Shown piece after piece: positions 10,129 through 54,813 of a stretch of 64,000 nucleotides of DNA (positions are counted from its first letter, which is position 1; each line of letters begins with the position of its first letter). Source of the DNA: an uncultured Clostridia bacterium (GTDB lineage: Bacteria; Bacillota; Clostridia; Lachnospirales; Lachnospiraceae). The stretch lies in NCBI GenBank assembly GCA_947643415.1, contig CANRWA010000004.1, positions 43,322-107,321 on the forward strand, read 5' to 3'. The position numbers and the translations under genes were made by a program. The notes under the pieces were generated by a model that was not told the origin of the DNA, made no database searches, and saw only the letters and a program-made list of their open reading frames with translations.

Positions 10129-10902
10129 ATGTTTACAATTGTTGCATGTATGAAATACATAAATTCGAGATTGCTTTCGGGAGATGTACAATTAGAAGGC
10201 GGTTACGTTATCAATCCATATGATCTATTTATGTTGGAGCAACTGCTAAAATTCAAAAAAAATACATCTTGTCGTATTGTTGGTCTGACAATGGGACCAT
10301 TGGCTTGTGTTGAGGTTATTCAGAGATGTATTGCTTATGGATTAGATGATATCTTTCTGGTCTGTGATAAGACCTTTTCTGGGTCGGATACATATGCTAC
10401 ATCCTACATTTTAACAGAGGCTTTGAAATATATTGGTCGGGCAGATATATATGCATTTGGAGAAAAGGCAACAGATGGAGAAACTGGGCAGGTTTCGATA
10501 GAAGTTGCCAGTCGCTTAGATTTGCTTTGCGTAATGGGAGTGCACAAATTTTGGATGAATAGTGCAAATGAGATACTTTTGGAACGCAAGTTTGCAGATA
10601 GATTAGAAGAGTTGATTCTTCCTATACCTTGTGCCCTTGGTTTTCGAGGATTTACCGTTAAAGAACCACAAATAAATTTACTAAAAATAAAAAAAGCCAG
10701 GAATTATACTCCTAATGTATTGACAGCAGAGACTCTTAAAGTCAAGAGTTATTATTGTGGAAATTTAGGCTCAAAAACTGCAGTAAAAGAAACTGAATTC
10801 ATTATTACAAAAAGAAATAATGAGGTTATAGAGGGAACATCTAAGAATAAAGCGGACATATTAAAGAAGTTGATTTCAGGATTTGGAAAGGAAAAAACAT
10901 GA
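10129..10902 (+). CDS. etfB: Electron transfer flavoprotein, beta subunit
   Basis: 257 residues, the usual EtfB length. Family stretches include KYINSRL near the start, NPYDLFMLEQLLKF at about 30-45, the GLDDIFLVCDKTFSGSDTYATSYIL nucleotide-binding region near 80-100 and the DGETGQV motif near 120. It should pair with EtfA (12370-13344) and carry electrons from the acyl-CoA-dehydrogenase homologue at 57507-58634. Its stop overlaps the start of the following ACP (ATGA), so they are coupled. A dedicated ETF within a cluster suggests the dehydrogenase is essential to product formation. Confidence 0.88.
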   Translation: MFTIVACMKYINSRLLSGDVQLEGGYVINPYDLFMLEQLLKFKKNTSCRIVGLTMGPLACVEVIQRCIAYGLDDIFLVCDKTFSGSDTYATSYILTEALKYIGRADIYAFGEKATDGETGQVSIEVASRLDLLCVMGVHKFWMNSANEILLERKFADRLEELILPIPCALGFRGFTVKEPQINLLKIKKARNYTPNVLTAETLKVKSYYCGNLGSKTAVKETEFIITKRNNEVIEGTSKNKADILKKLISGFGKEKT

Positions 10903-12205: not shown

Positions 12206-12369
12206 AGCATATTTTAAATTATCTAATAATTGAAAGGAGTGTATATTGAAAAATATACATAATGTGTCATGAAATAATAAGTGCCATTTGTTATGCCAGT
12301 TGTTTCAAGTGTAGTCAAATGAGGCAATTGATTATTATGATTTTTATTATAATTTGCGGAGGAGAGCAA

Positions 12370-13344
12370 GTGAAAACTGTGATATGGGTTGTGTGCTTTG
12401 AAACTCCAAATAAATTAGGAGATTATTGTAAACAAATACTTTATAAGGCGAGCAAACTAATTACTAAGAATGATGTTACGGTTTCTGCAGTATGTATTGG
12501 AGATTATGAACCAGGCAAATTACAAGCGTTGTCTAAGTATGGTGCTGATAAAGTGATCTTTTCCCAAGAGGTTTGCTCTAATTATAGACAGGTTGCTTCT
12601 ATTTTGTTTCATATGTATCAAAGTGAAAACGATAGCCCTAATCTTATTATGTTTCTGGCATCAGAATGGGGAAAATGTATTGCTGCAGATTTGGCAGTTA
12701 GAGTTGGAGCTGGTTTAATTGCAGAATGTATAGATATTAAGGCACAAAAAGAAAATAATAAATATAAATTTATTTTTACAAGATCGGCAGTTGCTTCAAC
12801 TGTTTTAGCACAAATATATTGTAAAAATACGAAGCTTAGCATGTGTACATGTAAAAAAAATGTTTTTATGGGGATTGATGCATATCCTTTCAAACATATA
12901 TCTGTTCAGAGTTGGTATGGCAACTACAGAGAGAAAACTCAACCATGGCGTATAATAAAATCGGAGTTGCAAGTATATGAAAGTACTAATGTTGAGTTAG
13001 AGACGGCAAGGCTTGTTTTTGGCATTGGCCGAGGGGTATGTAATAAAAATGATTTAATAGAGATCAGACAGGCTGCTGGAAAATATAACGCTGCTATAGT
13101 TTGTACAAGGGCTATTGTAGAAGAAGGAATTCTTGAGAAAGAACGGCAGGTGGGGCAGTCTGGTATCAGTATATCTCCGGAAATGTATATAGCAATTGGT
13201 ATTTCTGGGGCAGTACAGCATATGGTTGGGATAAAAAAGGTAAAGAAAATTATTGCCATAAATACGGATGAAAGTGCCCCCATCTTTTCATATGCTGATT
13301 ATTGTATTATAGATGACTATAAAAATATAATTAGAGAACTATAA
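12370..13344 (+). CDS. etfA: Electron transfer flavoprotein, alpha subunit
   Basis: 324 residues from the GTG at 12370 (VKTVIWVVC), chosen because GGAGGAG sits just before it; the upstream open frame from 12262 encodes a Cys-rich stretch not found in EtfA. The C-terminal FAD-binding half is clear: FGIGRGV, TRAIVEEG, RQVGQSG, YIAIGISGAVQHMVG and NTDESAPIF. Partner of EtfB. The two subunits are split by an ACP and a glycosyltransferase gene, unlike the usual adjacent etfBA order. Confidence 0.88.
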   Translation: MKTVIWVVCFETPNKLGDYCKQILYKASKLITKNDVTVSAVCIGDYEPGKLQALSKYGADKVIFSQEVCSNYRQVASILFHMYQSENDSPNLIMFLASEWGKCIAADLAVRVGAGLIAECIDIKAQKENNKYKFIFTRSAVASTVLAQIYCKNTKLSMCTCKKNVFMGIDAYPFKHISVQSWYGNYREKTQPWRIIKSELQVYESTNVELETARLVFGIGRGVCNKNDLIEIRQAAGKYNAAIVCTRAIVEEGILEKERQVGQSGISISPEMYIAIGISGAVQHMVGIKKVKKIIAINTDESAPIFSYADYCIIDDYKNIIREL

Positions 13345-13426: not shown

Positions 13427-14137
13427 ATGGTGCTTTTTATGGTTGAAGTATATTCGTTGAAATGTGATGATGAAATTAATAAAGAACAATATGATTTTTT
13501 ACTTTCTTTAATATCACATCAGAGATTGGAACAAATAAAAAAGTTTCATTTTGTTGAGGATGCCAAAAGAACTTTATTTGGAGAAGCAATGATAAGATAC
13601 TTAGCATGTAGTCGTATGAATCTGCAGAATGAAAATATATGTTTCGGAAAAAACCAATATGGGAAACCGTTTTTGTATAATAAACCTCGATTTTTCTTTA
13701 ATGTTTCACATTCTGCAAATTGGGTGGTTTGCGCAATTAGCACTAAAGAAGTGGGAGTTGATATTGAGAAATTAAAACCAATTGATATGAAAATTGCAAA
13801 ACGGTTTTTTGATAAAAGAGAGTATCATTATATAATGAGTGCTGCAGATTTCGCGACACAGGTTGAGTGCTTTTACGATATATGGACATTAAAAGAAAGT
13901 TATGTCAAATATATAGGTAAAGGACTGCACATACCTTTAAACTCATTTTGTGTATATAAAGAAGAACAGGATTATAAATTATTATCTAATAGGCTAGGGA
14001 ATAGACAGGATATATGTTTTTCAAAGTTTGATTTTAATAATAATTATAAATTGTCAGTATGTTCAGGAAAAATTAGGCATAATAAAATTATTAATCAAAT
14101 TAAACTTGTGGATATAGTAGGCAGATTGTGTAAATAA
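13427..14137 (+). CDS. 4'-phosphopantetheinyl transferase, Sfp-type
   Basis: 236 residues. The Sfp-family motifs are present: GKPFLYN and FFNVSHSANWVVCA (about 75-100), GVDIEKL near 107-113 and WTLKESYVKYIGKGL near 148-162. It would convert the T/ACP domains of the cluster to their holo forms using CoA. Start at 13427 or the in-frame ATG at 13439; neither has a strong ribosome site. 35 bp before the first NRPS. Confidence 0.9.
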   Translation: MVLFMVEVYSLKCDDEINKEQYDFLLSLISHQRLEQIKKFHFVEDAKRTLFGEAMIRYLACSRMNLQNENICFGKNQYGKPFLYNKPRFFFNVSHSANWVVCAISTKEVGVDIEKLKPIDMKIAKRFFDKREYHYIMSAADFATQVECFYDIWTLKESYVKYIGKGLHIPLNSFCVYKEEQDYKLLSNRLGNRQDICFSKFDFNNNYKLSVCSGKIRHNKIINQIKLVDIVGRLCK

Positions 14138-14172: not shown

Positions 14173-17100
14173 ATGTCATACAAATTTTTTTCACTATCAC
14201 AACCACAACAACGTATTTTTCTAACTCAAAATATATATCCCTTTTCATCTTTATATAATATTGGAGGTTCAGTCTTAATAAATGGATATGTTGATACGAG
14301 TATACTGCAACAGGCTATTAAAATGTTTATTCATGAGAATGATTCATTTCAAATTCGTTTAGTGTATAAGGGACATATTCCTATGCAGTTTTTTTGCATG
14401 GAGGAGTCCAATGTGGATTTCTTAGATTTTAGCAGAATCAATGGAGAAGCAGAAAAACATTATAGAAAATGGGAGGCTAGACAGGCTCGAACTCCATTTG
14501 AAATGATGAATGAACCTTTATATCAGTTTGCTGTCATAAAGATAAGTGATCATTTATATGGCTATTTTGTAAAGCTGCATCATATAATTGCTGACGGGTG
14601 GTCTATTCAATTGTTGACAAAAAGAATTCATGAAAATTACATGGAACTAAAATATGGTACAATAGTGGATAAGGAGAGTAACTGTCAATATAAGAACTAT
14701 CTTGTTGACGAACAGAAATATTTAGCATCGGCTAGTTACGATAAGGATAAGCAATACTGGTTGAACTTGCTTAAAAACGTTGATTGCAATAGCAATAACA
14801 TGGATTGTTTTATAGATGGAATCAGGACTACATTTTTTTTAACAGGAGATGTAGTTGTGTTGGTTCGATCCTTGTGTAAAGCATATAATATTTCTTTGAA
14901 CATTTTTTTTATTAGTATATATTCTTTGTATACATATAAGAAGCGTGGATTAAAAAAATTTATAATAGGAATACCTGTTTTGGGTCGAAAAGGAAAAATG
15001 CAGCATAGTATTTTTGGAATGATGGTTAATACTGTGCCGTTGCTGATTCAGATTGAACCATCACAGTCATTTATAGAGTTGGCACGCAACATAAATAAGA
15101 GTTTTTATGACTGCTACAAACATCAAAGGTATCCATACAATCATATGGTTCGAGGGAAAGGTTGGCAAGTTCAATCTTTATACAATGAATGTATGAATTA
15201 TTATGGAACTAAATTAGATCAGACGTTTGATGGTTTTCCGGTTACAAATACAGAGTTTTATAATGGGCAGCAATCATATATGTTTCAAATGATAGTCAGA
15301 GAATGGCAGGGAGAGGAGAAGGTTCAGTTGGATATTGATGCAGCGAATAGTGTATATAGCCAATTGCAGATTAATGATTTGATTAGTGAATTTATAGAAC
15401 TTGTTAATTGCTTTGCTGCTGACCCAACAAAGTGTGTTAATATGTTAGGAAGAAGTATAGAGGAAGAATTATCTTCGAAAGTAAAAAAAGGTTATAATGA
15501 CACAAAAAGAAAGCTGGAGACAGAGATAACAATAGTTGATTTGTTTGAAAGGGCTGTTAAACGGTATGCGGACTGTGTTGCGGTAGAGTGTGAAGGTGAA
15601 ACTTTTACATATGCACAATTTCATGAAAAAATATTGAAATTTTGCGCCCTTTTGGCTGAAAGGGGTATCAAATCAGGAAGTATAATTGGGGTTATAGCAA
15701 CACATTCTGTTGATATGCTGACTGCTATATGGGGAATATTGGCTTATGGATGTGTCATTTTACCGATAGATCCTAAAACTCCAGTTACAAGACAAAGATA
15801 TTTATTGGAGAATGTTTCCGCAAAAATACTTTTTTCAAACATTCCAGATTTAGATATACCGGGTTTTGGTGGAGCTATTTATGCTATTCAGGACATTGAA
15901 ATGGCTCGGTTAGGTGAAATAAATAGGCGGAGCAATCCTGAAAGGCTTGCATATATCATGTATACATCAGGATCGACTGGACAACCAAAAGGTGTACAAG
16001 TATCACATAAGAATCTATTAAATTATATTTGTTGGGCAAAAAAACAATATGTAGTAGGGAATAATAATCAGGAGGCAGAAGTATTTCCGTTATTTACCTC
16101 CATTTCGTTTGATCTTACCGTAACGACATTGTTTACACCATTAATCAGTGGGAGCAAAATAATTATTTATCCGGAATATGATAACGAATGTTCATTGTTT
16201 CGTATTTTGAATGAAAACCGATGTACAGTTGTTAAATTAACACCATCGCATTTGTCTTTAATTCGAGACCGAATAGGGCTAAACTCTTCAATTCGCCGGT
16301 TTATTGTTGGAGGAGAAGCATTACAAACTTCTTTGGCCGGCAATATTTATAGAAACTGGGGAGGAAAAATAGAAATTATTAATGAGTATGGACCGACAGA
16401 AGCGACAGTTGGCTGTATGAGTCATAGATTTGACTTCCATAAAGATGTATTTGATTCTGTTCCTATTGGAAAGCCAATCTGGAATACAAAAATTTATATT
16501 TTAGATAAAGATATGCAGGAAGTTCCCATAGGTAAAACAGGAGAAATATATATAGCTGGTGATTGTGTTACGCAAGGATATGTGAACTGTCCCGAATTAA
16601 CAGATAAAAGATTTATATTTCATGATATGGAAGAAGGCAGAGAACAGCTATATCGGACTGGTGATAGAGCTAAATTTTTAGATCATGATACGATGCTTTA
16701 TTGTGGTCGTTTAGATTCTCAAGTAAAAATACAGGGACATAGGATCGAATTGCAGGAGATAGAGTCGGAAATATTAAAAAATTCTGCTGTTGATGAGGTT
16801 CATGTAATGGCGTTGGATAATTTTAGCGGAGTAAAACAATTATGTGGGTATTATACTTCTGTAAAAGGCCTTCGTCAGGAAGAATTACGATTGTTTTTAC
16901 AGGAAAATGTACAACAATATATGATACCAACCTGGCTTATACATATGAATAACTTCCCGCTAAGTAATAATGGAAAGTTAGATTCGGATTTATTGCCTAA
17001 ACCGCAGAGTGGTATTTCCTCGAAAGATTATGACCATTCTCCTTTACTGGATATAAGTGCAAAGATATTAGGCGTTGATGGAATTGTTTTAGATGACGAT

Positions 17101-18546
17101 TTTTACAGTTTGGGGGGTAGTTCTATTTCTGCTATACAGATATCATCCAAATTACGAGAAAATAAGCTTTTATTGTCAGTGAAGTCAATTTTAGAAAATC
17201 CAGTTTTCAGGGATATGGAGACTTGCATAGAAAGACAGGAAGATACATTATTCGATCAGGGTCTATGTTCTGGGGAAATCGAACCAACACCAATAGTAAA
17301 ATGGTTTTTTGCGCAACCTTTCAAAAATTTAAATACTTACTATCAAGAGTTGCAGTTAATGTTAACCCGGCCGATTGATATCGTTACATTAGAAAAAGCT
17401 TTGACAGCTATTGTTAGATATCATGATATACTCAGAGTTAACGTAAGGGAGGATAGGCGATTATTTTATAATAATGAACATCTAAAAAGACAGGTTAAAA
17501 TAGAAGAAATAGGATGTGAAGAACGGACAAGAGAAGCTTTTGAACATATTATTGAGAAAAGTAAACAGAAGTTATTAAGTGAAATGAACATAACTTCAGG
17601 ACTTTTGGTGCGTTCCTGCTTAGTGAGTATGGGAGAAGTAAAGGTATGGTGTATATTAATACATCATTTAGTTGTGGATGGAATCTCATTAAGAGTGCTG
17701 CTTGATGATATTACAACAAGCTTGCGGTGTTTATTGCAAGGGCAGGATGTTAAATTACCAATGAAAACATTATCCTACAAAGCATATGCAGAGGATTTTA
17801 AGAAGGGAGATGATAGGAATTGTTCAAAACGTGTTCCTGCTATCCAGAACGCAGTACGTGAAGAACAACAAAATGCAATTTTGGAGTTGGATCAAGAAAC
17901 TACACAGATTCTTCTTCAAGATGCAAATCGACGATATTCTACAAAACCTGTGGAACTGTTGCTGGCAGGATTATTATATACATTATATGAAAATGTACAG
18001 AATCAATGGGAACTTCAATTAGAAGGTCATGGACGTGATAATGATAAGTATAATATTTCCAGAACAGTAGGATGGTTTACTTATCTGGCGTCAAAGAACA
18101 TTAATCATATTCCTGATAATATGGAGGAACTTATTATATATGCCAAAGAAACCTACCGAAGTATGATAAATACTGCTAATGAACATAGTTCAGAGATGTT
18201 TAATAGATCCAGAGGGGAGAGATCCATCCGATTTAATTATATGGGAGATTTTAGGACAAAGTATGATTTTTTTATAGTCGAACCAGTCTTTTCGTTACAG
18301 AATGAATTGCTTGAAACAATGGAACTAGATATGGTAGTTGTGAACCGAAAAATTATGATGTGCTTACGTATGCGCAATAGCATACTTTGTGGTGTTAAGG
18401 AAGCAGATGATTTTCTTGCAAAATACAAGCAAAATATTGAGAATATAGTAGGATTTTGTTGTCAGACAGGTGAGAGACATTTTTCACCATCTGATTTTGG
18501 ACTTGCGCATATTTCTCAGATAGAACTAGATCATCTTTTTGTATAA
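14173..18546 (+). CDS. NRPS, C-A(Asn)-T-E, predicted N-acyl-D-Asn loading module
   Basis: 1,457 residues. Condensation domain about 1-430 (HHIIADGWS near 135); adenylation about 450-930 (YTSGSTGQPKGVQ near 596, NEYGPTEATVG near 735); carrier domain with LGGSS near 980; epimerase about 1030-1450 (HHLVVDGIS near 1165, EGHGR near 1284 with SRTVGWFT, NYMGDF near 1354). Aligned by eye to GrsA, the specificity residues read D-L-T-K-I-G-E-V-G, the code known for Asn. The leading C domain with nothing before it suggests acylation of Asn by a fatty acyl donor, and the E domain gives D-Asn. This is the prodrug cap logic of colibactin, zwittermicin and xenocoumacin. The matching peptidase is at 21466-24591. 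Confidence 0.9.
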   Translation: MSYKFFSLSQPQQRIFLTQNIYPFSSLYNIGGSVLINGYVDTSILQQAIKMFIHENDSFQIRLVYKGHIPMQFFCMEESNVDFLDFSRINGEAEKHYRKWEARQARTPFEMMNEPLYQFAVIKISDHLYGYFVKLHHIIADGWSIQLLTKRIHENYMELKYGTIVDKESNCQYKNYLVDEQKYLASASYDKDKQYWLNLLKNVDCNSNNMDCFIDGIRTTFFLTGDVVVLVRSLCKAYNISLNIFFISIYSLYTYKKRGLKKFIIGIPVLGRKGKMQHSIFGMMVNTVPLLIQIEPSQSFIELARNINKSFYDCYKHQRYPYNHMVRGKGWQVQSLYNECMNYYGTKLDQTFDGFPVTNTEFYNGQQSYMFQMIVREWQGEEKVQLDIDAANSVYSQLQINDLISEFIELVNCFAADPTKCVNMLGRSIEEELSSKVKKGYNDTKRKLETEITIVDLFERAVKRYADCVAVECEGETFTYAQFHEKILKFCALLAERGIKSGSIIGVIATHSVDMLTAIWGILAYGCVILPIDPKTPVTRQRYLLENVSAKILFSNIPDLDIPGFGGAIYAIQDIEMARLGEINRRSNPERLAYIMYTSGSTGQPKGVQVSHKNLLNYICWAKKQYVVGNNNQEAEVFPLFTSISFDLTVTTLFTPLISGSKIIIYPEYDNECSLFRILNENRCTVVKLTPSHLSLIRDRIGLNSSIRRFIVGGEALQTSLAGNIYRNWGGKIEIINEYGPTEATVGCMSHRFDFHKDVFDSVPIGKPIWNTKIYILDKDMQEVPIGKTGEIYIAGDCVTQGYVNCPELTDKRFIFHDMEEGREQLYRTGDRAKFLDHDTMLYCGRLDSQVKIQGHRIELQEIESEILKNSAVDEVHVMALDNFSGVKQLCGYYTSVKGLRQEELRLFLQENVQQYMIPTWLIHMNNFPLSNNGKLDSDLLPKPQSGISSKDYDHSPLLDISAKILGVDGIVLDDDFYSLGGSSISAIQISSKLRENKLLLSVKSILENPVFRDMETCIERQEDTLFDQGLCSGEIEPTPIVKWFFAQPFKNLNTYYQELQLMLTRPIDIVTLEKALTAIVRYHDILRVNVREDRRLFYNNEHLKRQVKIEEIGCEERTREAFEHIIEKSKQKLLSEMNITSGLLVRSCLVSMGEVKVWCILIHHLVVDGISLRVLLDDITTSLRCLLQGQDVKLPMKTLSYKAYAEDFKKGDDRNCSKRVPAIQNAVREEQQNAILELDQETTQILLQDANRRYSTKPVELLLAGLLYTLYENVQNQWELQLEGHGRDNDKYNISRTVGWFTYLASKNINHIPDNMEELIIYAKETYRSMINTANEHSSEMFNRSRGERSIRFNYMGDFRTKYDFFIVEPVFSLQNELLETMELDMVVVNRKIMMCLRMRNSILCGVKEADDFLAKYKQNIENIVGFCCQTGERHFSPSDFGLAHISQIELDHLFV

Positions 18547-18618
18547 GATTAAATTTAACAGGCTGCAATTTAATCGGACATGTCCAAAATTATTAGATAC
18601 TTTTTTGGAGGGATTTGT

Positions 18619-19461
18619 ATGGATATAATTGGTGTTGTTGGAGCCGGTACCATGGGGAAAGGAATAGCATTAGCTTTACTGCTTTCGGGACATGGTGTAA
18701 CGGTAATAGAGAACAACAAGCTAAAAAGGATGAAATTTATTCAGGAGATAGAGAAAGAATATAGAATTTTAAGTATGATGAATGCTGACAAATATTTAGA
18801 GTGGGATCAAATTGAGAATAAAATACAGATATCGGAAGACTTGGAACTTTTAAGGAATTCTTCAATTATTATAGAATGCATCAATGAAGATATCAATAGA
18901 AAAAAGGAACTTTTTGAGAGGTTAGATCAAATTGCTGATAAACAGTGTATCTTTTATTCGAATACATCATGCATTAGTATTACGATGCTGGCTTCGTATA
19001 CACAGCGTCCGGAAAAGGTAATTGGAACACACTTTATGAATCCAGTTAATCAAATCCATAGTGTGGAAGTTATAAAAGGCATTCATACATCAGCAGAGAC
19101 AATAGAAAGAACTCAGCATCTATTAGAAGTAATGGGGAAACAGGCAATCATTATTAATGACATGGCAGGTTTTGTTTCTAATCGAATATCACATCTCATG
19201 ATGAATGAGGCAGCTTTTATTTTACAGGATAGAATTGCGGATGCAGCAACTATAGATGAAATATTTAAAAAGTGTTATGGGCATAAGATGGGGCCTTTAG
19301 AAACGGCTGATTTGATTGGAATAGATACAGTAGTAGATTCGCTTAACGTATTATATGAATTTTATCAGGACTTCAAGTATAGGTGCTGTCCGCTTTTAAA
19401 ACAAATGGTCGCATCAGGATATTGTGGGAAGAAGACAGGAAAAGGTTTTTATATATATTAA
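18619..19461 (+). CDS. 3-hydroxyacyl-CoA dehydrogenase family enzyme (ZmaG/ClbD-like role)
   Basis: 280 residues from the ATG at 18619, preceded by TTGGAGGG; the frame open from 18580 lacks such a site. NAD-binding GVVGAGTMGKGIA at the N-terminus, then ECINED, the catalytic GTHFMNPV near 137, and NRISHLMMNEA in the C-terminal helical domain. In zwittermicin and colibactin pathways such enzymes oxidise a glyceryl- or seryl-ACP hydroxyl to the aldehyde for a hydroxymalonyl or aminomalonyl extender. Here, with FkbH, the glyceryl route is favoured. Confidence 0.88.
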   Translation: MDIIGVVGAGTMGKGIALALLLSGHGVTVIENNKLKRMKFIQEIEKEYRILSMMNADKYLEWDQIENKIQISEDLELLRNSSIIIECINEDINRKKELFERLDQIADKQCIFYSNTSCISITMLASYTQRPEKVIGTHFMNPVNQIHSVEVIKGIHTSAETIERTQHLLEVMGKQAIIINDMAGFVSNRISHLMMNEAAFILQDRIADAATIDEIFKKCYGHKMGPLETADLIGIDTVVDSLNVLYEFYQDFKYRCCPLLKQMVASGYCGKKTGKGFYIY

Positions 19462-19535
19462 GAACAAAAAAACAAACATGATTAAAAAATTTTGTAATTG
19501 TACTATACGAAATAAATACATTGAATGGGGAAAAA

Positions 19536-20459
19536 ATGAGACAGAGATTATATGTTCACTTATATGTGACAACAAAATGTAATTTAGCATGTAAGCATTG
19601 TTATTCAGCTTATTCAGAAAAAAGCACAAAAGAATTATCTGTTGAGCAAATTGTTTTTTTGATTCGTTGGTTAGAAAGAAAGTATGATGCATTTTTTGAT
19701 GTTGAGGGTGGAGAAATTTTTCTTCGGCAAGATATTAATAGAATTCTATCTATGCTGACAGAATCAGAACGTCAGAAAATCACAATAACTACAAATGGAA
19801 CTATATTACCTAAAGTAGATCCACTTTATTTGAGGCAACTGGACGAATTCCGTGTATCAGTTGAGGGTCATACCACAGAGCTTCAAGAAAACATTCGTGG
19901 TGTTGCGCTTATGCCAATAATGAAGAATTGTGAAGAATGGTTAAAGCAAAATATTCCTGTTGAAATTCGCATGACAATTCATAAAAAGAATTACCAATAT
20001 CTTCAGGAAGCCTGTCAATATTTTATTCGACTTGGCTTTCAACGTTTTAGTTTTTATGAGTTTCAGGCTGTTGGCAGGGGGAAGGATTTTGCGGAAGAAT
20101 ATATCTTAGATGCAGGAGCCTTTGAAGTAGTGTTAAAGCAACTTTCCAGTCTTGCCCAAACGAGACCTGTGGTTGACTGGATTAAGCTTAATATTACAAA
20201 TCAGCGTAGAGATTTACTAGAGAAAAATCAAAACCAGTTGGAAAACACCAAATTTGAGATATTGGATGTATGCGATATACCAACACTTACGATAAGCAGT
20301 GCTGGAAAGCTTGGAACATGTCCTTGGAATGTGTCAGATCAGACTATAGATATAACTAATCTTAAAGAATTTGAAGATAAAGTTGATGAGATAGTTGACT
20401 TACAAGGCGGCAGACATGCTTGTGATCATTGTAGTTCGTTTAGGATACTTTATAAATGA
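19536..20459 (+). CDS. Radical SAM protein 1 (SPASM/twitch-like)
   Basis: 307 residues from the ATG at 19536. The SAM-binding cluster motif CNLACKHC lies near residue 16, the GGE motif (EGGEIFL) near 60. The C-terminus has further Cys in TCPWN and CDHCSSF, suggesting an auxiliary Fe-S cluster. The substrate is unknown; it may modify a carrier-bound amino acid or the finished peptide. It sits between the hydroxyacyl dehydrogenase and the cysteine-synthase-like gene. Confidence 0.82.
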   Translation: MRQRLYVHLYVTTKCNLACKHCYSAYSEKSTKELSVEQIVFLIRWLERKYDAFFDVEGGEIFLRQDINRILSMLTESERQKITITTNGTILPKVDPLYLRQLDEFRVSVEGHTTELQENIRGVALMPIMKNCEEWLKQNIPVEIRMTIHKKNYQYLQEACQYFIRLGFQRFSFYEFQAVGRGKDFAEEYILDAGAFEVVLKQLSSLAQTRPVVDWIKLNITNQRRDLLEKNQNQLENTKFEILDVCDIPTLTISSAGKLGTCPWNVSDQTIDITNLKEFEDKVDEIVDLQGGRHACDHCSSFRILYK

Positions 20460-20477
20460 AAGAGAGGGGGGATCTCT

Positions 20478-21485
20478 TTGGCATTAAAATTTGACAACAA
20501 ATTTCATTTTGTTAAAACGCCAGTTTTACAATGTAGAAAATTTGCGAAAAACAATAATGTATTTGTAAAATTAGAAGGCAAAAATATAAATAATAGTGTT
20601 AAATGCCGTTCAGCATATTTTATGATACAGGATTTAGTTACTAATTATTCTGTGTCAAATATCGTTGAGTCTTCAAGTGGCAATTTAGGATTAAGTCTTG
20701 GTTATTTTGCAAAAGAAGCAAATCTTAATTTTTTGTGTCTAGTAGATCCTACGGTACCAGAAAGTAAAATTCAAAAATTAAGGGATTATGGTATAAATTA
20801 CTATTCGGTTCCGCTATCTGGCAAAGCGGATTATCGAACGGCAAGGATTGATTATGCAAAAGAATTGGACAAGAGAAAAGAATGGAAATGGACGAATCAA
20901 TATAGTAATCCGGCAAATGCCAAAGGACACTATTTAACAACGGCACCAGAATTATATGAACAGATGGATAAACGTATTGATATCTTTGTTTGCTCTGTAG
21001 GGTCTGGGGGGACCATATCCGGTGTAGGAAAATATTTAAAAGAGCACAATGAAAACATAATAATTGTGGCGGTTGAGCCAAAGGGGTCAACTATATTTGG
21101 TGGTACTGATGCTTCTTACCTGACTGTTGGAGCTGGTCTAGTCGGACCATCTGGATTAATTAAACATAATTGGGACTTGATCGATTATGCAGTCAAGGTT
21201 AATGATGATGATGCTATCAGTATTTCGATTGAGTTTGAAATAATGGAAAAAGAATCGGTCGGAATAACATCAGGAAGTGTATTATATGTTGCTCGTTATC
21301 TTTCGGAACTATTTCCGAATCAGCGCATTGCATGTATATCGCCAGATGGTGGGGAGAATTATCGGCATATATATGATGATCATGTCGAAAAGGAGAGAGA
21401 AGCGTTGGATATATTTTCATTGCGAAAGAATGGTAACATAAAGATTAGTAATAATGGGAGGATGCATGAGAAAATCAATAATTAG
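20478..21485 (+). CDS. PLP-dependent cysteine synthase-like enzyme (possible diaminopropionate pathway)
   Basis: 335 residues from a TTG with GAGAGGGGGG upstream. Fold type II PLP family: the PLP Lys is in NSVKCR near 41, the substrate loop in SSSGNLGLSLG near 68, the phosphate-binding GSGGTISGVG near 178 and a C-terminal GITSGS motif near 262. CysK and SbnA/ZmaU-type enzymes share this architecture. In zwittermicin and siderophore clusters a CysK-like enzyme makes a precursor of 2,3-diaminopropionate, but the usual ornithine-cyclodeaminase-like partner is not present here. Plain cysteine supply is an alternative. Confidence 0.75.
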   Translation: MALKFDNKFHFVKTPVLQCRKFAKNNNVFVKLEGKNINNSVKCRSAYFMIQDLVTNYSVSNIVESSSGNLGLSLGYFAKEANLNFLCLVDPTVPESKIQKLRDYGINYYSVPLSGKADYRTARIDYAKELDKRKEWKWTNQYSNPANAKGHYLTTAPELYEQMDKRIDIFVCSVGSGGTISGVGKYLKEHNENIIIVAVEPKGSTIFGGTDASYLTVGAGLVGPSGLIKHNWDLIDYAVKVNDDDAISISIEFEIMEKESVGITSGSVLYVARYLSELFPNQRIACISPDGGENYRHIYDDHVEKEREALDIFSLRKNGNIKISNNGRMHEKINN

Positions 21486-24400
21486 GATAATATCATTTTT
21501 ATTAATTATATTGATTGTAATTTTGTCTCCAATAACTTATATTGATGCAAAGCAATCGGCAGATCTTTATCAATTGGAAGATTTAAATGAGAATAAAGTT
21601 ACTAAATTAGTTGAAAATGTAATGGAGAAATCTGATGTCCCAGGAATATCAATTACAATTATCAGTGGTGATGAAACGAAGTTTTTAAATTATGGATATG
21701 CTGATAAGGAATCCCAAATAGCCGTAACGGACGAAACGTTGTTTGAATTGGGTTCGATGAGTAAGGCGTACACTGCTTTAGCAATATTTTTGCTTGTAGA
21801 GGAAGGAAAGTTATCCTTAGATGATAACGTATCAGATTATCTACCATGGTTTACCGCTCATTATAAAGGAAAATATAAAAGAAAGCGTATAGATGAAGAT
21901 GTAGATATTAAACTGCGTGACTTAGTATATCATACAAGTGGTATGCCATTTGAAAGCCTAGGCTACATTCCAGAGGGAAATGGGGACAATATGCTGGAAC
22001 AGACTGTTCGCAATATAAATGGGATCTCGTTGGATTTTTATCCTAATGAGAAATTTCAATATGCTACAGTGAATTATGACATTTTAGGTCTTATAATCCA
22101 AGAAATTACGGGACTATCATATGAAGAATATATGTACAAGAATATTCTGGGACCATTGGGTTTAGAACATACCTACTTATTTCAGGATGATGCAAAAGAA
22201 ACTGGTCTTTTGGCCAAAGGCTATAAGATGAAATTTTTTCAGTCACATCCGTATGAAGCTCCCGTTTATCGAGGAAATGCGCCAGCTGGTTATGTAATTT
22301 CAAATGCAAAAGATATGGAACGATGGATTCGTTTTCAAATGGGCAATATAAGGGTGGGAAGCATATTAAATACTGCAATGGAGAAAACGCATGTTGGAGA
22401 CTATACAGTACCATCACAGGACAATCAGTTGTATGCTGGTGGTTGGCATGTAGACTTAAAAGAAGATTTAATAGAGCATGGTGGTGAGAATCCCAATTTT
22501 TCTTCTATGCTGACAATAAATAGGGATAAGCAATTTGCTGTATGCGTACTTTCAAATATGAATTCTAATGCGGCCGGATATATTTGTAGTGAAATAGTTG
22601 CAATGTTTGAAAATACCACTTCTACGAAATATACAGAGCATCAATATCATATGATGGATAAGGTTTTTAGTCTTATATTGATCTTTTCTGGTTTGTTATT
22701 TATTATTTTCATATTTTTGATTGTGCGGGCGCTTATGGAAATTATAAAAGGGGAGAGACGATATACGAAGTTGAATGAGGTAAGAGTTGCAGGGGAACCT
22801 TTGGCGTTTTTCATGACCTTTCTTTTAGGTGTATGTGTATATTATATTCCAAATGTTTTGTTTTACCGTCTTCCCTGGAGAGTGGTTTCGGTTTGGGGAA
22901 GCTCGAATGTTGTATTAGGTTGCATCACAGCCTTTATCATGTTTGTAGTTTTTATGATATATATGCTTTTAACATTTAATTTTAGCAAAGAAAATGAGAA
23001 AAATTATCTATCTCTGGTAGTATTAAGTATTATAAATGGTGCAGCAAGTGCATTAATTATATTCTCAATCAATGAATCATTTAATAGAAATTTACAATAT
23101 ACAAAAGAATTACTATTTTATTTTCTTTGTGCTTTAATATATCTTGTTTATACCAAGAAATTGATGGAGGGTAGACTGATTGTAATTGTAAATGAAATTA
23201 TTTATCAAAAAAGGACAGGATTGATCACAAAAATTAGTGATTCACGATATCAGGCCATTGAAACCATCGGCAATGAGCGAATTTATTCTGCATTAAATAA
23301 TGATATAGAACAGATATCCAGAATTCCTGATATGTTGGTTAGCTTTGCTTCTAACTTATTAACATTGATATTTTGTTTGGCGTTTCTATATTTTAAAAGT
23401 AAAGTAGCATTTGTAGTATCATTTTTCGTAATAGTTTTAAATGGATTGATTGGGTATATAACCGGGAAAAAAGCCTCAAAATATTGGGAAAAGAATAGAA
23501 CAATTCAGGATACATATTTTAAGCAATTAGCTGATTTAGTTTATGGATTTAAGGAACTAAAATTGAATGTTTTGAGAAAAGTTGATTTTTTACTTGATAT
23601 CAAACGATATTCACGTTCCTCCTCGGAATTAAAAAAGACGTCATCAATAAAATTTCTTAATTATGATATTTATAATATGTTAATGTACAATGTTATTTTT
23701 GGTGTAGTTGTTTTTTTCTTTCCCCTGATCATATCAGATATTAATGTAAATGATTTACGAGAAAATTTGTTTCTGGTTTTCTATTTAATAGGTCCGTTTT
23801 TATCAGTTTCTGGTTTTATTGGAGGCATTTTAGAAATGAAAGTTCATTTAAAGCGGGTTGATCAAATAAGGAAAGAATTGGATGATGGTCAGACTGAAGG
23901 ACTAGAGGGAAGGATTGGGTTAGGAATAGAATCATCTGAGCAAATGTGTATTAAATTGAATTCAGTTACTTACCAGTACAAATCACGGAACGAAGGGGAT
24001 GCTGATGTTGAGAATGTCTTTGAACTGGGACCACTGAATTTTGAGTTTCAAAAAGGAAAGGTTGTATTTATAACAGGAGGGAATGGAAGTGGTAAATCCA
24101 CACTTGGCAAATTGATTACGGGATTATACTCCCCCTTGAATGGGAGCATTCAGATTAATGGAAAGGAAGCGTTACCGGAGGAATTGAATGAATTGTTTTC
24201 GGCGGTCTATAGCGATTTCCATTTATTTGATAAATTATACGGTATTGATGTAAAGAGCAGAAAAGATGAAATTGATAAACTAATAGAAATGATGGGGCTG
24301 CAAAATGTCATTTCATATAGTCAAAATGGAGAAATTGAAAGTACTAAACTCTCAACTGGACAAAAGAAGAGGCTTGCATTTGTTGTTAGCTGTCTGGATG

Positions 24401-24591
24401 ATAAGCCAATGGTTTTGTTTGATGAATGGGCGGCTGAGCAAGATCCAGTTTTTCGAAAGTATTTTTATGAAGAGTTAATTCCTATGTTAGCTGCTCTTGG
24501 TAAAGGCGTTGTGGTTATTACACACGATGATCGTTATTTTAATTGTGCAGATGTCTTGTTAAAGCTCGAACGAGGACAAACATTGAGTTAA
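21466..24591 (+). CDS. ClbP-like D-asparaginyl peptidase fused to ABC exporter
   Basis: 1,041 residues from the ATG at 21466 (GGGAGG upstream; 20-bp overlap with the preceding gene). Signal-anchor at about 4-24; serine hydrolase of the beta-lactamase/ClbP type at about 40-390 with SMSK near 98-101, YATVNY near 205 and HGGENPN near 337; three membrane segments as in ClbP; then a SyrD/PvdE-type exporter with further membrane helices (about 520-790) and an ATPase (GGNGSGKST near 873, LSTGQKKR near 965, VLFDEWAAEQDP near 984, ITHDD). ClbP-type peptidases cut N-acyl-D-Asn from prodrugs in the periplasm; fused peptidase-ABC forms are known in related pathways. The Asn-E module at 14173 makes this pairing compelling. 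Confidence 0.88.
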   Translation: MRKSIIRIISFLLIILIVILSPITYIDAKQSADLYQLEDLNENKVTKLVENVMEKSDVPGISITIISGDETKFLNYGYADKESQIAVTDETLFELGSMSKAYTALAIFLLVEEGKLSLDDNVSDYLPWFTAHYKGKYKRKRIDEDVDIKLRDLVYHTSGMPFESLGYIPEGNGDNMLEQTVRNINGISLDFYPNEKFQYATVNYDILGLIIQEITGLSYEEYMYKNILGPLGLEHTYLFQDDAKETGLLAKGYKMKFFQSHPYEAPVYRGNAPAGYVISNAKDMERWIRFQMGNIRVGSILNTAMEKTHVGDYTVPSQDNQLYAGGWHVDLKEDLIEHGGENPNFSSMLTINRDKQFAVCVLSNMNSNAAGYICSEIVAMFENTTSTKYTEHQYHMMDKVFSLILIFSGLLFIIFIFLIVRALMEIIKGERRYTKLNEVRVAGEPLAFFMTFLLGVCVYYIPNVLFYRLPWRVVSVWGSSNVVLGCITAFIMFVVFMIYMLLTFNFSKENEKNYLSLVVLSIINGAASALIIFSINESFNRNLQYTKELLFYFLCALIYLVYTKKLMEGRLIVIVNEIIYQKRTGLITKISDSRYQAIETIGNERIYSALNNDIEQISRIPDMLVSFASNLLTLIFCLAFLYFKSKVAFVVSFFVIVLNGLIGYITGKKASKYWEKNRTIQDTYFKQLADLVYGFKELKLNVLRKVDFLLDIKRYSRSSSELKKTSSIKFLNYDIYNMLMYNVIFGVVVFFFPLIISDINVNDLRENLFLVFYLIGPFLSVSGFIGGILEMKVHLKRVDQIRKELDDGQTEGLEGRIGLGIESSEQMCIKLNSVTYQYKSRNEGDADVENVFELGPLNFEFQKGKVVFITGGNGSGKSTLGKLITGLYSPLNGSIQINGKEALPEELNELFSAVYSDFHLFDKLYGIDVKSRKDEIDKLIEMMGLQNVISYSQNGEIESTKLSTGQKKRLAFVVSCLDDKPMVLFDEWAAEQDPVFRKYFYEELIPMLAALGKGVVVITHDDRYFNCADVLLKLERGQTLS

Positions 24592-24615
24592 AGAAGAGAT
24601 AGGAGTTTGATTGGT

Positions 24616-25548
24616 TTGAATCTTTTTATGTTACCTTATGCAGGTGGATTTTCAAGTTATTACAATAGTTGGAAACCTTTATTTTCAAAGGATATTACAC
24701 CAATTGCAATAGAGCCTAAGGGAAGAGGAACTCGTCATAGGGAAGTGTTTTATGATAATTTTACAGATGCGATCAAAGATTACATTAACCAGATTGAGAC
24801 AAGGAAAACGTCAAAGCAATATGCTATTTATGGTCATAGTATGGGAGCATTTGCAGCATATGAAATTTGTGCGTTTTTACTGAGAAACCATGAAACATTA
24901 CCTATTCATTTATTTTTGTCTGGTCGGTTGCCGCCATCTGTTTTGGTAAAGAAAAAGTCGGAAGAATTTTCTGAAGAGAGTATCATGAAACAGATGGAAA
25001 GACTTGGTGGGACTCCAGAATGGCTTTTACAGGATAAAAAGAGTATTGCTTTTTTTGTCTCAAAATTAAGAGATGATCTTAATTTGTTTTATAATTATGT
25101 ACCAGTTGCCATGCCGACTATTTTACCAATACCAATAACGGTTATGAATGGCAAAGAGGATTGTAATGAACAGATAATGAAAGAGTGGGAAGAATTCAGT
25201 AATGGAGATTTCGCATATTACGAGTTTGATGGTGGTCATTTTTTTATTAATCAGTTTAAGAAGGAGATTGTTCAGATTATTCAACAACGTTTAAAGGAAA
25301 GAAAGGATATGACGGTGAAGAGTAAAATAAAAGATTTTGTTTTAAGATATGTATCTAGTGCAGCATTGAAAGATGATGATAATTTTATTGAGTTAGGTCT
25401 TGTAAATTCGTTGTTTTTTATGCAGCTTGTCATTTTTTTGGAAAAAGAATTTTCAATTACAATTGAAAATGATGAGCTAAAACAAGATAATTTTAGTTCA
25501 ATTAATGCTATTACTATGTTCATAGATCGAAAAGTGTTAGGGGCATAA
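24616..25548 (+). CDS. Type II thioesterase fused to FkbJ-like acyl carrier protein
   Basis: About 310 residues. I prefer the TTG at 24616, since the GGAG at 24602 is too close to the TTG at 24607. The first 220 residues are a GrsT-like thioesterase (LPYAGG at the start, GHSMGAFAAYE near 73, DGGHFF near 205). The last 80 residues are a carrier domain whose site reads LGLVNSLFFMQLVIFLEKEF followed by QDNFSSINAI; this FVNSLF/NFxSI pattern is characteristic of ACPs that carry the FkbH-derived glyceryl/hydroxymalonyl unit. The fusion of editing thioesterase with an extender ACP is unusual. The AT follows one base later. Confidence 0.82.
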   Translation: MNLFMLPYAGGFSSYYNSWKPLFSKDITPIAIEPKGRGTRHREVFYDNFTDAIKDYINQIETRKTSKQYAIYGHSMGAFAAYEICAFLLRNHETLPIHLFLSGRLPPSVLVKKKSEEFSEESIMKQMERLGGTPEWLLQDKKSIAFFVSKLRDDLNLFYNYVPVAMPTILPIPITVMNGKEDCNEQIMKEWEEFSNGDFAYYEFDGGHFFINQFKKEIVQIIQQRLKERKDMTVKSKIKDFVLRYVSSAALKDDDNFIELGLVNSLFFMQLVIFLEKEFSITIENDELKQDNFSSINAITMFIDRKVLGA

Positions 25549-25549
25549 A

Positions 25550-26761
25550 ATGGGAGAACAAGTAAGGTTGGCTGCTTTATTTCCCGGACAAGGTTCCCAA
25601 TATATTGGGATGGGAAAAAAGTTGTGTCAATATAGTGAGGCGGCCAGAAGCATTTTTAATCAGGCGGATGAAATATTAGAATATCCACTAAGCCATATTT
25701 GCTTTGAGGGAAGTGTCAGAGAAATTAACAAATTGCAGATTATGTTTGCTGCAATTTTAACGTGTGATGTTGCTGTTTATCATGCTTATATGGAGAGGAT
25801 AGGAATTCAACCTATTATTGGTGCCGGACATAGCTTAGGAGAATATGCTGCACTCGTTTGTGCAGGAATAATGAAGTTTGAGGACGCATTAAAATTAGTA
25901 ACCTTGAGAGCAGAACTGGCAATAGAGGAAGCGAAAGGGAAAAGTTGCTCGATTATTATAGGTTTAAACAAAGAGCAGGTTGAATCACTATTAGAGGAAT
26001 ATCAGGGGATTGAAATTGGCTGTTTTAATGCTGAAAGACAAATATTAATTGCAGGAGTTACAGAAGAATTATACAGATTTGAAAAACAGGTATTAAAGCA
26101 AGGCGTGGAAGTAACTCCTTTACCCTTTAGTCCGCCTATTCATACCTTTTATATGAAGCAGACAATTTCGAAGCTTAGGAAAGCTCTGGAACGCTGCGAT
26201 TTTGGTATCCCTAAATGGAACATCATTAGTAATTTTGATAGTGAATTCTATACAGGAAATAAGAAAACGGTGTTAAATAAATTATTACAACAGATGGTGT
26301 CGCCTGTATTGTGGACAAAAGCACTGGAATATCTTAATGAATATGATATTGATTTAGTAGTGGAGATGAGTACTAGAAATATTTTGACAAATCTTTTAGA
26401 TTCCGAAAAGGCAGACTATTCTTCACTTTCTTATGGAAAGGCATATATACAGGAGTTGCAACAGAATGAAAATACATTAAGCAATCAAACATTTCAAAAA
26501 GAAATAGTTAATAGGAGTTTGAAGATAGCGGCAAGTACAAGAAATAGAAATTGGGACGAGAAAAGTTATGAGGAGAAAGTTAGAATTCCTTGGCTAAATC
26601 TTGAAGCTATGGATAGGAAGCTTCAAGAGGAGAACACGGTATCTATATCACCAAATGAAATATTAGGTAACTTAAAAGAAATACTTGTATCAAAGCAAGT
26701 GGAGCGTAAATTAGTTTCACGGAAGCTGTTTCATGCTGTATTTCAAAGGGATGGCAATTGA
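25550..26761 (+). CDS. Discrete acyltransferase (trans-AT)
   Basis: 403 residues. FabD/AT motifs: FPGQGSQYIGMG at 10-21, active-site GHSLGEYAAL near 88-97, and the substrate-binding PFSPPIHTFYM stretch near 190-200. About 100 extra C-terminal residues follow the normal AT fold and have no recognisable domain. The PKS at 38775 has no AT, so this enzyme should load its ACP, with hydroxymalonyl from the fused ACP, or malonyl. ClbG plays the analogous role for aminomalonyl in colibactin. Confidence 0.88.
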   Translation: MGEQVRLAALFPGQGSQYIGMGKKLCQYSEAARSIFNQADEILEYPLSHICFEGSVREINKLQIMFAAILTCDVAVYHAYMERIGIQPIIGAGHSLGEYAALVCAGIMKFEDALKLVTLRAELAIEEAKGKSCSIIIGLNKEQVESLLEEYQGIEIGCFNAERQILIAGVTEELYRFEKQVLKQGVEVTPLPFSPPIHTFYMKQTISKLRKALERCDFGIPKWNIISNFDSEFYTGNKKTVLNKLLQQMVSPVLWTKALEYLNEYDIDLVVEMSTRNILTNLLDSEKADYSSLSYGKAYIQELQQNENTLSNQTFQKEIVNRSLKIAASTRNRNWDEKSYEEKVRIPWLNLEAMDRKLQEENTVSISPNEILGNLKEILVSKQVERKLVSRKLFHAVFQRDGN

Positions 26762-26780
26762 TAAGAGGAGGGATGCTATA

Positions 26781-28181
26781 TTGAAGAAAATATCCAAGGA
26801 GCAGGTGGAGGATATATTTGAATTAACACCAATGCAGACTTCCATGCTTGTAGCATATTTGAATGATTCTACCCACCAAGCTTATCATGAGCAAACTCGC
26901 TATAGGTTGACTGGACCGATTATGTCAGAGTATCTTTGTGAAGCACTTCGAATTGTTGTAAAGATGCACCCAATGCTTAGGGCTGTTTACAGGTGGAAGC
27001 AATTATCGGTTCCACTGCAAATCATTTTGGATGATCAGAAAGAGCCAGTGGAGTTTTATGATGTATCGGATGGGACAATGGATGAGGCAGTGAGATTTTC
27101 TGATGATATTGATCAACAGGTATTTACTCAAAAACTGGATCTTGAAGAACAGGCAGTTCGGTTTATTGTTATAAAGTTAAAAAAGGAATTATTTCACTTA
27201 ATTATTGTAAATCATCATATTATATTTGATGGTTGGAGCAATGGAATACTATTAAAAGATTTATTGGAAGTTTATTGTACTTTAAAAAATAGAAAAGCTC
27301 AATCTTTAAATATAATAAGACGCAAAGGGTATAAGAAATTTGTTAATATGCAAAACAATACTGATACCGCATCAAGAGAATTATTTTGGAAAGAGTATTT
27401 CAAAGATTATCAAAGTAAAGAAATATTACCATTTGCAAAACCTAATGAAAATGTTTCAGGCGTTGGGCATTTAGAGTTTCCTTTAGATACTGGGTTAATA
27501 CAGAAGATACATCGACAGGCTGCACAGTTAGGAGTTACAATTGCAACAATGCTGTATGGTGTCCTTGCAGCATTGTTTTATCAGAAAACAAAGATTAGTG
27601 ATATTGTTTTCGGGGCTACATTATCTTGTCGTCCGTTGAATCTGGATTGCTTTCAACAGGTCATCGGAATGTTTATTAATACGTTACCATTAAGAATAAT
27701 GGTATCTCCCCAGAGAACGTTACAGGAGTTTTTGCAAACTGTTGCGGAAAGCTATATATGTATTGAGGAGTTTAAGGATACACCAAAGGAATACATAGCA
27801 TCGTTTTTGAACTCCCAAACAAGATTGCGGTTATACAATATTGCTGTTACAATCCAGAATTATCCGATGTCAAATATTGTTTTACAAGGGAATGAAGAAT
27901 TAAAAATGGAGCTTTATTCCCGCCATATTGCTACAGATTTACCGTTAACAATTGGTATAAGAACATATGATAGCATGACTTTTGATTTTATTTATCAAAA
28001 GGAATGGTATGATGAAGAGAAAATTCAGCAGTTTATGTATCAATTTTGTAAATTGTTGGAAAAGTTCTTAGAAGATAATGTTCATAATCAAACGTTAGAT
28101 AAGTTATTGCAACCAAATATAAGAAACACACAGTCAGTAATTTTGCAGTTTGAGGAGGCGGAGTTTAATGATGTATTTTAG
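26781..28181 (+). CDS. Stand-alone NRPS condensation domain
   Basis: 466 residues from the TTG at 26781, which has GAGGAGGG nine bases before it; an ATG at 26751 is also in frame. Core motifs: FELTPMQTSM near 15, RAVYRW, NHHIIFDGWSNG near 140-150 (HHxxxDG intact), GMFINTLPLR near 300. A complete free-standing C domain is needed here because the A-T protein at 36311 has only half a C domain. It may accept the D-Asn unit or attach an ACP-bound group. Overlaps the next gene by 14 bp. Confidence 0.87.
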   Translation: MKKISKEQVEDIFELTPMQTSMLVAYLNDSTHQAYHEQTRYRLTGPIMSEYLCEALRIVVKMHPMLRAVYRWKQLSVPLQIILDDQKEPVEFYDVSDGTMDEAVRFSDDIDQQVFTQKLDLEEQAVRFIVIKLKKELFHLIIVNHHIIFDGWSNGILLKDLLEVYCTLKNRKAQSLNIIRRKGYKKFVNMQNNTDTASRELFWKEYFKDYQSKEILPFAKPNENVSGVGHLEFPLDTGLIQKIHRQAAQLGVTIATMLYGVLAALFYQKTKISDIVFGATLSCRPLNLDCFQQVIGMFINTLPLRIMVSPQRTLQEFLQTVAESYICIEEFKDTPKEYIASFLNSQTRLRLYNIAVTIQNYPMSNIVLQGNEELKMELYSRHIATDLPLTIGIRTYDSMTFDFIYQKEWYDEEKIQQFMYQFCKLLEKFLEDNVHNQTLDKLLQPNIRNTQSVILQFEEAEFNDVF

Positions 28182-30347: not shown

Positions 30348-30351
30348 TATA

Positions 30352-32313: not shown

Positions 32314-32327
32314 GGAGGATTATCAAT

Positions 32328-33428: not shown

Positions 33429-33431
33429 CCT

Positions 33432-34292: not shown

Positions 34293-34315
34293 CGTAGTGA
34301 ATAAAGGAGTAAAAT

Positions 34316-51659: not shown

Positions 51660-51660
51660 G

Positions 51661-54544: not shown

Positions 54545-54796
54545 ATGGAAAAGGAAAAAATTATTGAGAGGATAAAAGAATTAATTATTTCTGTCGCTGA
54601 TTTTGATTTATGTAAAGATGAAATTAGTTGTGAGACAGATGGAATTGCAAAACTAGGACTAAACTCTTTAGCGACAATTCGTCTTTGTGCAGCATTGGAA
54701 AGGGAATATAATGTCGAAATTGATTTAGAGGATAACGCGGAAATATTAGCATCAGTAAATAGTTTGGTTGACTATATTATAGAAAATCAGAGTTGA
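54545..54796 (+). CDS. Stand-alone acyl carrier protein
   Basis: 83 residues, phosphopantetheine site LGLNSLAT (Ser41), acidic helix ALEREYNVEIDLED. GAAGGA before ATG. It is followed 17 bp later by an AMP-forming ligase, so ligase and ACP likely form a loading pair for a fatty acid or other carboxylic acid. It may supply the acyl group for the N-acyl-D-Asn start or the acceptor for the terminal C domain. Confidence 0.88.
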   Translation: MEKEKIIERIKELIISVADFDLCKDEISCETDGIAKLGLNSLATIRLCAALEREYNVEIDLEDNAEILASVNSLVDYIIENQS

Positions 54797-54813
54797 GATT
54801 GGAGATGAAGAAT

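Follow-up and report, generated by a model that had tools for sequence, protein, structure and literature searches.

ClbP, the D-asparagine (D-Asn) peptidase, and its longer relatives are the closest described systems to the locus analyzed here. Sections of PMC9889268 list E92, S/T188, N331, W460 and W466 as the D-Asn-specific residues of ClbP, with N331 and E92 setting D-Asn over D-Asp, and describe sequences resembling ZmaM (EdeA, PamJ and ZmaM homologues), some 1,100 residues long, that bear a fused ATP-binding cassette (ABC) half; part of PMC4234257 terms this architecture type II and gives it nine helices. The window studied is a stretch of 64,000 nucleotides from an uncultured Clostridia bacterium (GCA_947643415.1, contig CANRWA010000004.1, positions 43,322 to 107,321), whose genome (4.6 Mb in 230 contigs, 94.6% complete) belongs to the Lachnospiraceae, as does that of Anaerosporobacter faecicola (G166). 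It contains a hybrid nonribosomal peptide synthetase-polyketide synthase (NRPS-PKS) cluster, and the sequence argues that its product is very probably made on an N-acyl-D-asparagine cap, which a ClbP-like peptidase, joined in one protein to an ABC exporter, would remove outside the membrane.

The peptidase-exporter gene (21454-24591, + strand, as are all the cluster genes described below) is intact and encodes 1045 amino acids; an in-frame ATG at 21466, lying behind a GGAGG, is probably the true start and would give a protein of 1041. The motifs SMSK (residue 101), YATVN (203) and HGG (342) are followed by a Walker A (875), the signature LSTGQ (966), a Walker B (986) and an H-loop (1023); Pfam assigns Beta-lactamase (7e-64) and ABC_tran (1.8e-22). 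The best solved relative of the peptidase half is full-length ClbP (E 4.3e-68) in an alignment that includes the membrane domain, so chance is no issue. Membrane helices are predicted at 397-432, 448-469 and 484-509, and the fold match to ClbP runs through residue 510. The exporter half reaches 287.5 bits against the NCBIfam cyclic-peptide exporter TIGR01194 (cutoff 286.2). Motifs, Pfam and a gap of 2.9 kb between the two genes thus bear out the sequence-only reading, which had described an SMSK/YATVNY/HGG hydrolase with ClbP-like helices and a full ABC ATPase 3 kb downstream of a loading NRPS. The fusion itself, when considered as the novelty of the locus, had to be given up: the C-terminal ABC exporter and a length of about 1,000-1,100 residues are those of the type II proteins EdeA, PamJ and ZmaM, already published in the parts of PMC9889268 and PMC4234257 cited above.

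When aligned to ClbP, the catalytic triad S95, K98 and Y186 corresponds to S101, K104 and Y203 of the window protein and is present in 120 of 120 homologous sequences. The D-Asn pocket is present as N346 (N331), T205 (S/T188), E98 (E92) and N275 (H/N257), and W475 and W481 occupy the positions of W460 and W466 in the three-helix membrane domain. The D-Asn-specific residues are kept in the 120 sequences (W466 in 119; N331 and E92 equivalents in every one) and also in the peptidases of eight relatives, while two S12 control proteins were without N331, S/T188 and E92. These D-Asn-binding residues, whose absence the sequence-only reading had named as one way to refute its proposal, are therefore in place. 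Going by its sequence features, the protein belongs with the D-Asn prodrug-activating peptidases (ClbP, XcnG, ZmaM).

The loading NRPS (14173-18546) is an intact protein of 1457 amino acids with the order condensation-adenylation-carrier-epimerisation (C-A-T-E): Pfam finds two condensation stretches, AMP-binding and PP-binding, HHxxxDG motifs occur at residues 136 and 1164 and the carrier motif at 980. The second condensation-family stretch, reading HHLVVDG at 1164, is the E domain; residues 958-1456 align with chain 5isw_A of Gramicidin S synthase 1, a carrier-E construct. Motif and alignment give the A-domain code as D647 L648 T651 K688 I711 G713 E738 V746 G747, DLTKIGEVG, which reads as Asn and from which an N-acyl-D-Asn starter is predicted. 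Domain order and code agree exactly with those first reported; the peptidase and the loader also lie where they had been placed, although the cluster is larger than the coordinates then given and extends over about 10129-58634.

We compared 14 named loci in stretches of at most 10 kb on either side of the peptidase (the L011 and L019 loci are under 6 kb); A-domain codes were first read in the seven loci whose loader match reached 32% or more across 1,200 residues or more. An Asn-code loader stands near the peptidase in six of the 14: the code is DFTKIGEIG in L012 (the A. faecicola locus, its contig and coordinates coinciding with those of G166) and L052, DFTKIGEVG in L009 and L010, and DLTKIGEVG in L014 and L021. 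The seventh locus, L016, carries DILQFGMV, possibly in another protein than the loader; the A domains of L015, L017, L018 and L020 have other codes, no A domain was scored in L013, and the 842-residue protein G302_121 contains none. In three further genomes found through a different gene of the cluster (G471, G478 and G443; see below), the loader code is DLTKIGEVG in all three.

Gene content, the Asn code, the D-Asn-pocket residues and domain architecture are read from the sequence, and the loader, the peptidase and the U32 cassette (described below) are seen to recur; the structure of the cap, its cleavage and export, the U32 chemistry and the product are inferred. The loader would acylate Asn, through a predicted N-acylating starter C domain, and epimerise it, after which the assembly line would attach a residue supplied by the U32 cassette, followed by a ketide and further units. 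The inactive precursor would cross the membrane through the exporter half and be cleaved behind D-Asn, on the outer side, by the tethered peptidase; such cleavage on export is proposed to keep the active molecule from accumulating in the cell. The pocket residues, the Asn code and the recurring loader thus lend support to the acyl-D-Asn prodrug that the sequence-only reading had put forward. The proposal would carry a known self-protection logic into the Lachnospiraceae, an anaerobic family. According to part of PMC9889270, boronates that inhibit ClbP act on ZmaM as well and cause a zwittermicin precursor to build up; an inhibitor of this kind could therefore help to reveal the hidden product with no need for genetics.

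Some observations count against a D-Asn cap. Within the stretches compared, no Asn-code loader was read in eight of the 14 named loci, and the loader of G443 is split over three reading frames. K235, which braces E92 in ClbP, is L in the window protein and Lys in none of the 120 sequences, so the network behind E92 is unlike that of ClbP. That substitution would suit a peptidase removing some N-terminal cap other than D-Asn, the Asn module then contributing a retained residue; we consider this highly improbable, since the equivalents of N331 and E92, which set D-Asn over D-Asp according to sections of PMC9889268, are present in all 120 homologues and the loader with its E domain recurs beside the peptidase.

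Within the family, peptidase matches at E 1e-60 or better were obtained in six of 299 genomes, two of which (the window genome and G166) cover the whole fusion, the other four covering the ClbP-like part only, one of them with two internal stops. Among the homologue rows one is 86% identical (P0004) and 74 are 44-54% identical (P0005-P0078, two of them named Anaerocolumna cellulosilytica); Paenibacillus and other rows are at or below 40%, save a partial row at 49% (P0079). Two relatives show variation in the peptidase itself. The peptidase of genome G082 (contig 32, L145, 10877-12283) is 468 residues long and has the D-Asn residues, with a Tyr at the W460 position; no NRPS gene matching those of the window was found in the 20 kb read around it. 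In G471 (L134-L136, joined position 33232-34764) a 510-residue ClbP-like peptidase with the full D-Asn residue set is devoid of the ABC half in a cluster that otherwise matches the U32 cluster of the window; the exporter fusion thus varies between sister clusters.

These identities also bear on whether the bacterium is an overlooked relative that makes an already known D-Asn prodrug, belonging to the class of zwittermicin, edeine, paenilamicin or amicoumacin. The gene list and carbamoyl step of zwittermicin are brought to mind by the peptidase-ABC gene, the carbamoyltransferase and the gene set of a hydroxymalonyl-acyl carrier protein (ACP) extender system: an FkbH-family protein (56353-57381; TIGR01686, 252.9 bits, above cutoff), a member of the 3-hydroxyacyl-CoA dehydrogenase family (18580-19461; Pfam 3HCDH_N, 4.2e-48), one of the acyl-CoA dehydrogenase family (57507-58634; Pfam, and NCBIfam PigA/RedW-like below cutoff) and a carrier fused to a thioesterase (24607-25548; Thioesterase 8.1e-32, PP-binding). 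We nevertheless regard such an origin as very improbable. The nearest peptidases are those of the 44-54% group, with its two Anaerocolumna rows, and not those of Paenibacillus. Neither the U32 cassette nor the tailoring genes are known from the ZmaM, PamJ or EdeA pathways, and the U32 pair, the PP-loop A domain, the PIG-L and the family 4-type glycosyltransferase (GT4) described below are not known to belong to the pathways of any of the compound classes above. Finally, the stand-alone acyltransferase (AT; 25550-26761, Pfam Acyl_transf_1) has the motif GHSLG, lacking the Y of the GYS found in ZmaA and ZmaF (GYSFG and GYSLG, in part of PMC4207774), which weakens hydroxymalonyl-ACP loading by this enzyme.

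Beyond the capping genes, and outside the coordinates of the sequence-only reading, what is new in the locus is a U32-C-A-T cassette tied to D-Asn prodrug clusters in Lachnospirales, in the few genomes having it. It comprises a stand-alone C domain (26733-28181; Condensation 7.1e-68), the Peptidase_U32 proteins U32a (28150-29307; 6e-13) and U32b (32310-33428; 2.9e-12), and an A-T protein (36311-38719; Pfam) whose N-terminal extension of about 210 residues gave no match in the family searches; in the window, tailoring genes are interspersed among them. The cassette genes adjoin in relatives, in the orders C-U32a-U32b-A-T-Asn-synthase (G166), C-U32a-U32b-A (G302 contig 171), C-U32a-U32b (G300), U32a-C-U32b (G302 contig 121), C-U32a-U32b-A-T (G471) and U32a-C-U32b-A-T (G478). 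The A-T codes are unusual and alike: DGSSVGEIA in the window, DGTSVAEIG in G166, DGSSVAEI in G302, DGASVREI in G471 and DGSSVAEVA in G478; the first may resemble the Tyr code DGTITAEVA. Searching with U32a at E 1e-60 or better recovered four of 392 genomes of the order (the window genome, G471, G478 and G443) and, at the level of the phylum, one of 398, the window genome alone. In the three others the U32 gene sits inside an NRPS cluster with a full-residue D-Asn-type peptidase and an Asn-code loader.

Both U32 proteins belong to PF01136, with a TIM-barrel model; sequence similarity to solved U32 proteins is weak even at its best (E 3.6e-4). In family and model they resemble UbiU/UbiV, TrhP and RlhA, and as in UbiU-UbiV there are two paralogues; unlike those proteins they are NRPS-linked and carry seven invariant cysteines in the pattern CX3CX29C plus a C-terminal CX3CX2CX2C. 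The cluster motif of the U32 oxidases, CX6CX15CX3C in part of PMC11574389, is absent from the window proteins, and membership in the known U32 oxidases was rejected on that account. Given seven invariant cysteines but not that motif, we treat an oxidation of carrier-bound residues that needs no oxygen as an attractive but speculative idea. We propose it tentatively, and with much less confidence than the prodrug reading: the cassette might carry out an O2-independent oxidation of the residue next after D-Asn while this is bound to its carrier. It is likewise possible, though we would not rely on it, that a heteromeric U32 Fe-S pair, docked by the stand-alone C domain, hydroxylates the residue beside the D-Asn cap in strict anaerobes, taking the role of P450s and non-haem iron oxygenases in aerobic NRPS systems, and that the product would represent a new glycosylated, carbamoylated, amidine-bearing Lachnospirales prodrug family. 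If so, a route to hydroxylated nonribosomal peptides without O2 would exist in strict anaerobes, and the U32 family, the mechanism of which is open according to part of PMC11574389, would gain an NRPS-linked substrate.

The link between the cassette and the prodrug logic has several points to its disadvantage. Three of three is a small number, drawn from the order search, whereas named rows among the 343 U32 homologues also come from Blautia, Clostridium estertheticum, Ruminiclostridium and Acidobacteria; G443, moreover, carries a single U32 gene, of the b type. At the thresholds used, a U32 match was found in five of the 12 genomes with a ClbP-like peptidase (the window genome, G166, G082, G300 and G302) and in none of the other seven (G024, G038, G179, G299, G303, G304 and G305), several of which are incomplete metagenome-assembled genomes, and U32 is therefore dispensable for the prodrug logic. 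In G082 the NRPS locus that holds the U32 gene has a single S12 protein, which is without the D-Asn residues; the D-Asn-type peptidase of this genome is on another contig, where the 20 kb read showed no NRPS genes. In the fragmented genomes G300 and G302, U32 and peptidase are on separate contigs. The missing oxidase motif and the weak match to a solved protein would also suit a U32 pair that is no oxidase but plays a structural part or serves as some other redox partner, for instance to the radical SAM proteins, in which case the D-Asn logic would be the only transferable mechanism; we give this close to an even chance, as the cluster encodes three radical SAM proteins, one of them directly 3' of U32a. 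Oxidation by the U32 cassette is kept here as the tentative proposal.

Those radical SAM proteins are encoded at 19521-20459 (Radical_SAM 9.9e-18), 29331-30347 (7.2e-17; the one next to U32a) and 34316-35149; the third is weak (22.4 bits, below the gathering score, with CxxxCxxC seen by eye) and has a 52% identical counterpart in the sister cluster of G478. Interspersed with the cassette are a NodU-like carbamoyltransferase (30301-32313; Carbam_trans_C 6.4e-53), a PIG-L deacetylase (33432-34292; 1.7e-14) and the GT4 gene (35172-36311; Glycos_transf_1). The sister cluster of G478 (L137-L139, joined positions 24676-54601) shares the carbamoyltransferase, radical SAM protein 3, GT4 (41%), PIG-L and the BtrH-like protein. 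The cluster of A. faecicola has in addition an acyltransferase of the AAT family, a pair of B12-binding radical SAM proteins and an aminotransferase (L110:11764-12843, L110:13151-14803, L110:16680-17876, L111:648-2285), and products within the cluster family therefore probably differ.

The assembly line continues with a PKS-NRPS protein of ketosynthase, ketoreductase, ACP and C domains (38775-43703; Pfam), a glutamine-dependent asparagine-synthase-like amidotransferase (43721-45577; Asn_synthase 2.5e-78, GATase_7) and an A-T-C protein (45606-49706; Pfam, code DPRHMALLA) with an interrupted A domain, in which the alignment to solved NRPS structures stops at residue 441 and restarts at 787. The insert (46938-47930) is a sugar-amidotransferase-like PP-loop domain (PDB 8wex, E 3e-4). 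It resembles WbuX/WbpG, having the PP-loop domain after a CxxC...CxxC stretch (by eye) and an E of 6e-31 with the N-acetyl sugar amidotransferase family TIGR03573; unlike these it sits inside an NRPS A domain, and it scores 108 bits against a curated cutoff of 203, so that it was not accepted as a member. The insert is widespread, with 1353 homologues, the best 120 of which include Streptomyces, Paenibacillus, Cyanobacteria and Bacteroidota rows. Among the open-licence papers listed, none evidently ties U32 proteins or PP-loop domains to nonribosomal assembly lines, and none evidently deals with the insert. Our guess is that the insert and the Asn-synthase-like gene just upstream could form an amide or amidine.

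Further genes are a 4'-phosphopantetheinyl transferase that would arm the carrier domains (13427-14137; AASDHPPT_N, ACPS), a pyridoxal phosphate enzyme whose best NCBIfam model is SbnA, 2,3-diaminopropionate synthase, below cutoff (20478-21485; TIGR03945, 197 bits against 350), the BtrH-like protein (49749-50726; BtrH_N), a nucleotidyltransferase-fold protein (50739-51659; Polbeta, NTP_transf_2) and a stand-alone acyl ligase or adenylation protein (54793-56289; AMP-binding), the three best solved relatives of which are acyl-CoA ligases or synthetases. A LytTR response regulator encoded ahead of the cluster (8677-9402; Pfam) is a candidate for controlling it. Electron-transfer flavoprotein (ETF) beta (10129-10902) and alpha (12262-13344) genes lie at the cluster edge with a family 2 glycosyltransferase gene between them; in locus L017 the ClbP-ABC gene is followed directly by genes for an acyl-CoA dehydrogenase (56%) and for the beta and alpha subunits of ETF. 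Together, these arrangements suggest an O2-free electron route for the acyl-CoA dehydrogenase. The 29 genes listed leave 28 gaps, of which three are longer than 100 bp (295, 264 and 125). GC content is 0.32-0.36 over the cluster (8001-56000) versus 0.49 in the first 4 kb of the window, which may hint at transfer.

The cluster also encodes a diverged UvrA paralogue (51625-54528; Pfam), a second copy lying beside uvrB elsewhere in the genome (contig 32). The cluster protein shares 44-47% identity with the other seven UvrAs in the comparison, against 60-78% between the uvrB-linked host copy and six UvrAs from other genomes. Like DrrC and Ecm16, it is a UvrA paralogue inside a biosynthetic cluster; those two are without the UvrB-binding domain in the parts of PMC10192343 and PMC10413001 that describe them, whereas the window protein retains the UvrB-interaction domain (PF17760 UvrA_inter, 1.4e-20, residues 144-249) and hence is not of their type. 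Its divergence, the association of UvrA-like genes with clusters of DNA-binding products (part of PMC10413001) and the place of clbS among the colibactin resistance genes (part of PMC9854587) would fit a product that acts on DNA, with the paralogue as a second layer of self-protection, as clbS reportedly is for colibactin. We hold this to be rather unlikely, given the retained domain and the lack of a UvrA homologue in the cluster stretches of G166, G471, G478 and G443. At its edge, L009 has a UvrA that is the sole match of that genome at E 1e-100 or better and is probably the housekeeping copy.

In summary, the window protein shares with ZmaM, PamJ and EdeA a length of about 1,040 residues, an S12 peptidase, ClbP-type helices, an exporter half with its nucleotide-binding domain and the D-Asn pocket residues, a likeness read from the published features of those three; it differs in being closest to the 44-54% group, which includes Lachnospiraceae. 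ClbP is the best sequence and fold match over the peptidase and three helices and has the logic of loader and peptidase in common with the window, although it is without the ABC half; T205 and N275 stand for S188 and H257, both within the published set, and K235 of ClbP is not kept. With the zwittermicin A pathway the cluster shares the peptidase-ABC fusion, FkbH, 3HCDH, the acyl-CoA dehydrogenase and the Asn loader, and it is set apart by its one PKS module, the GHSLG acyltransferase, the U32 pair, the PP-loop A domain, GT4 and PIG-L.

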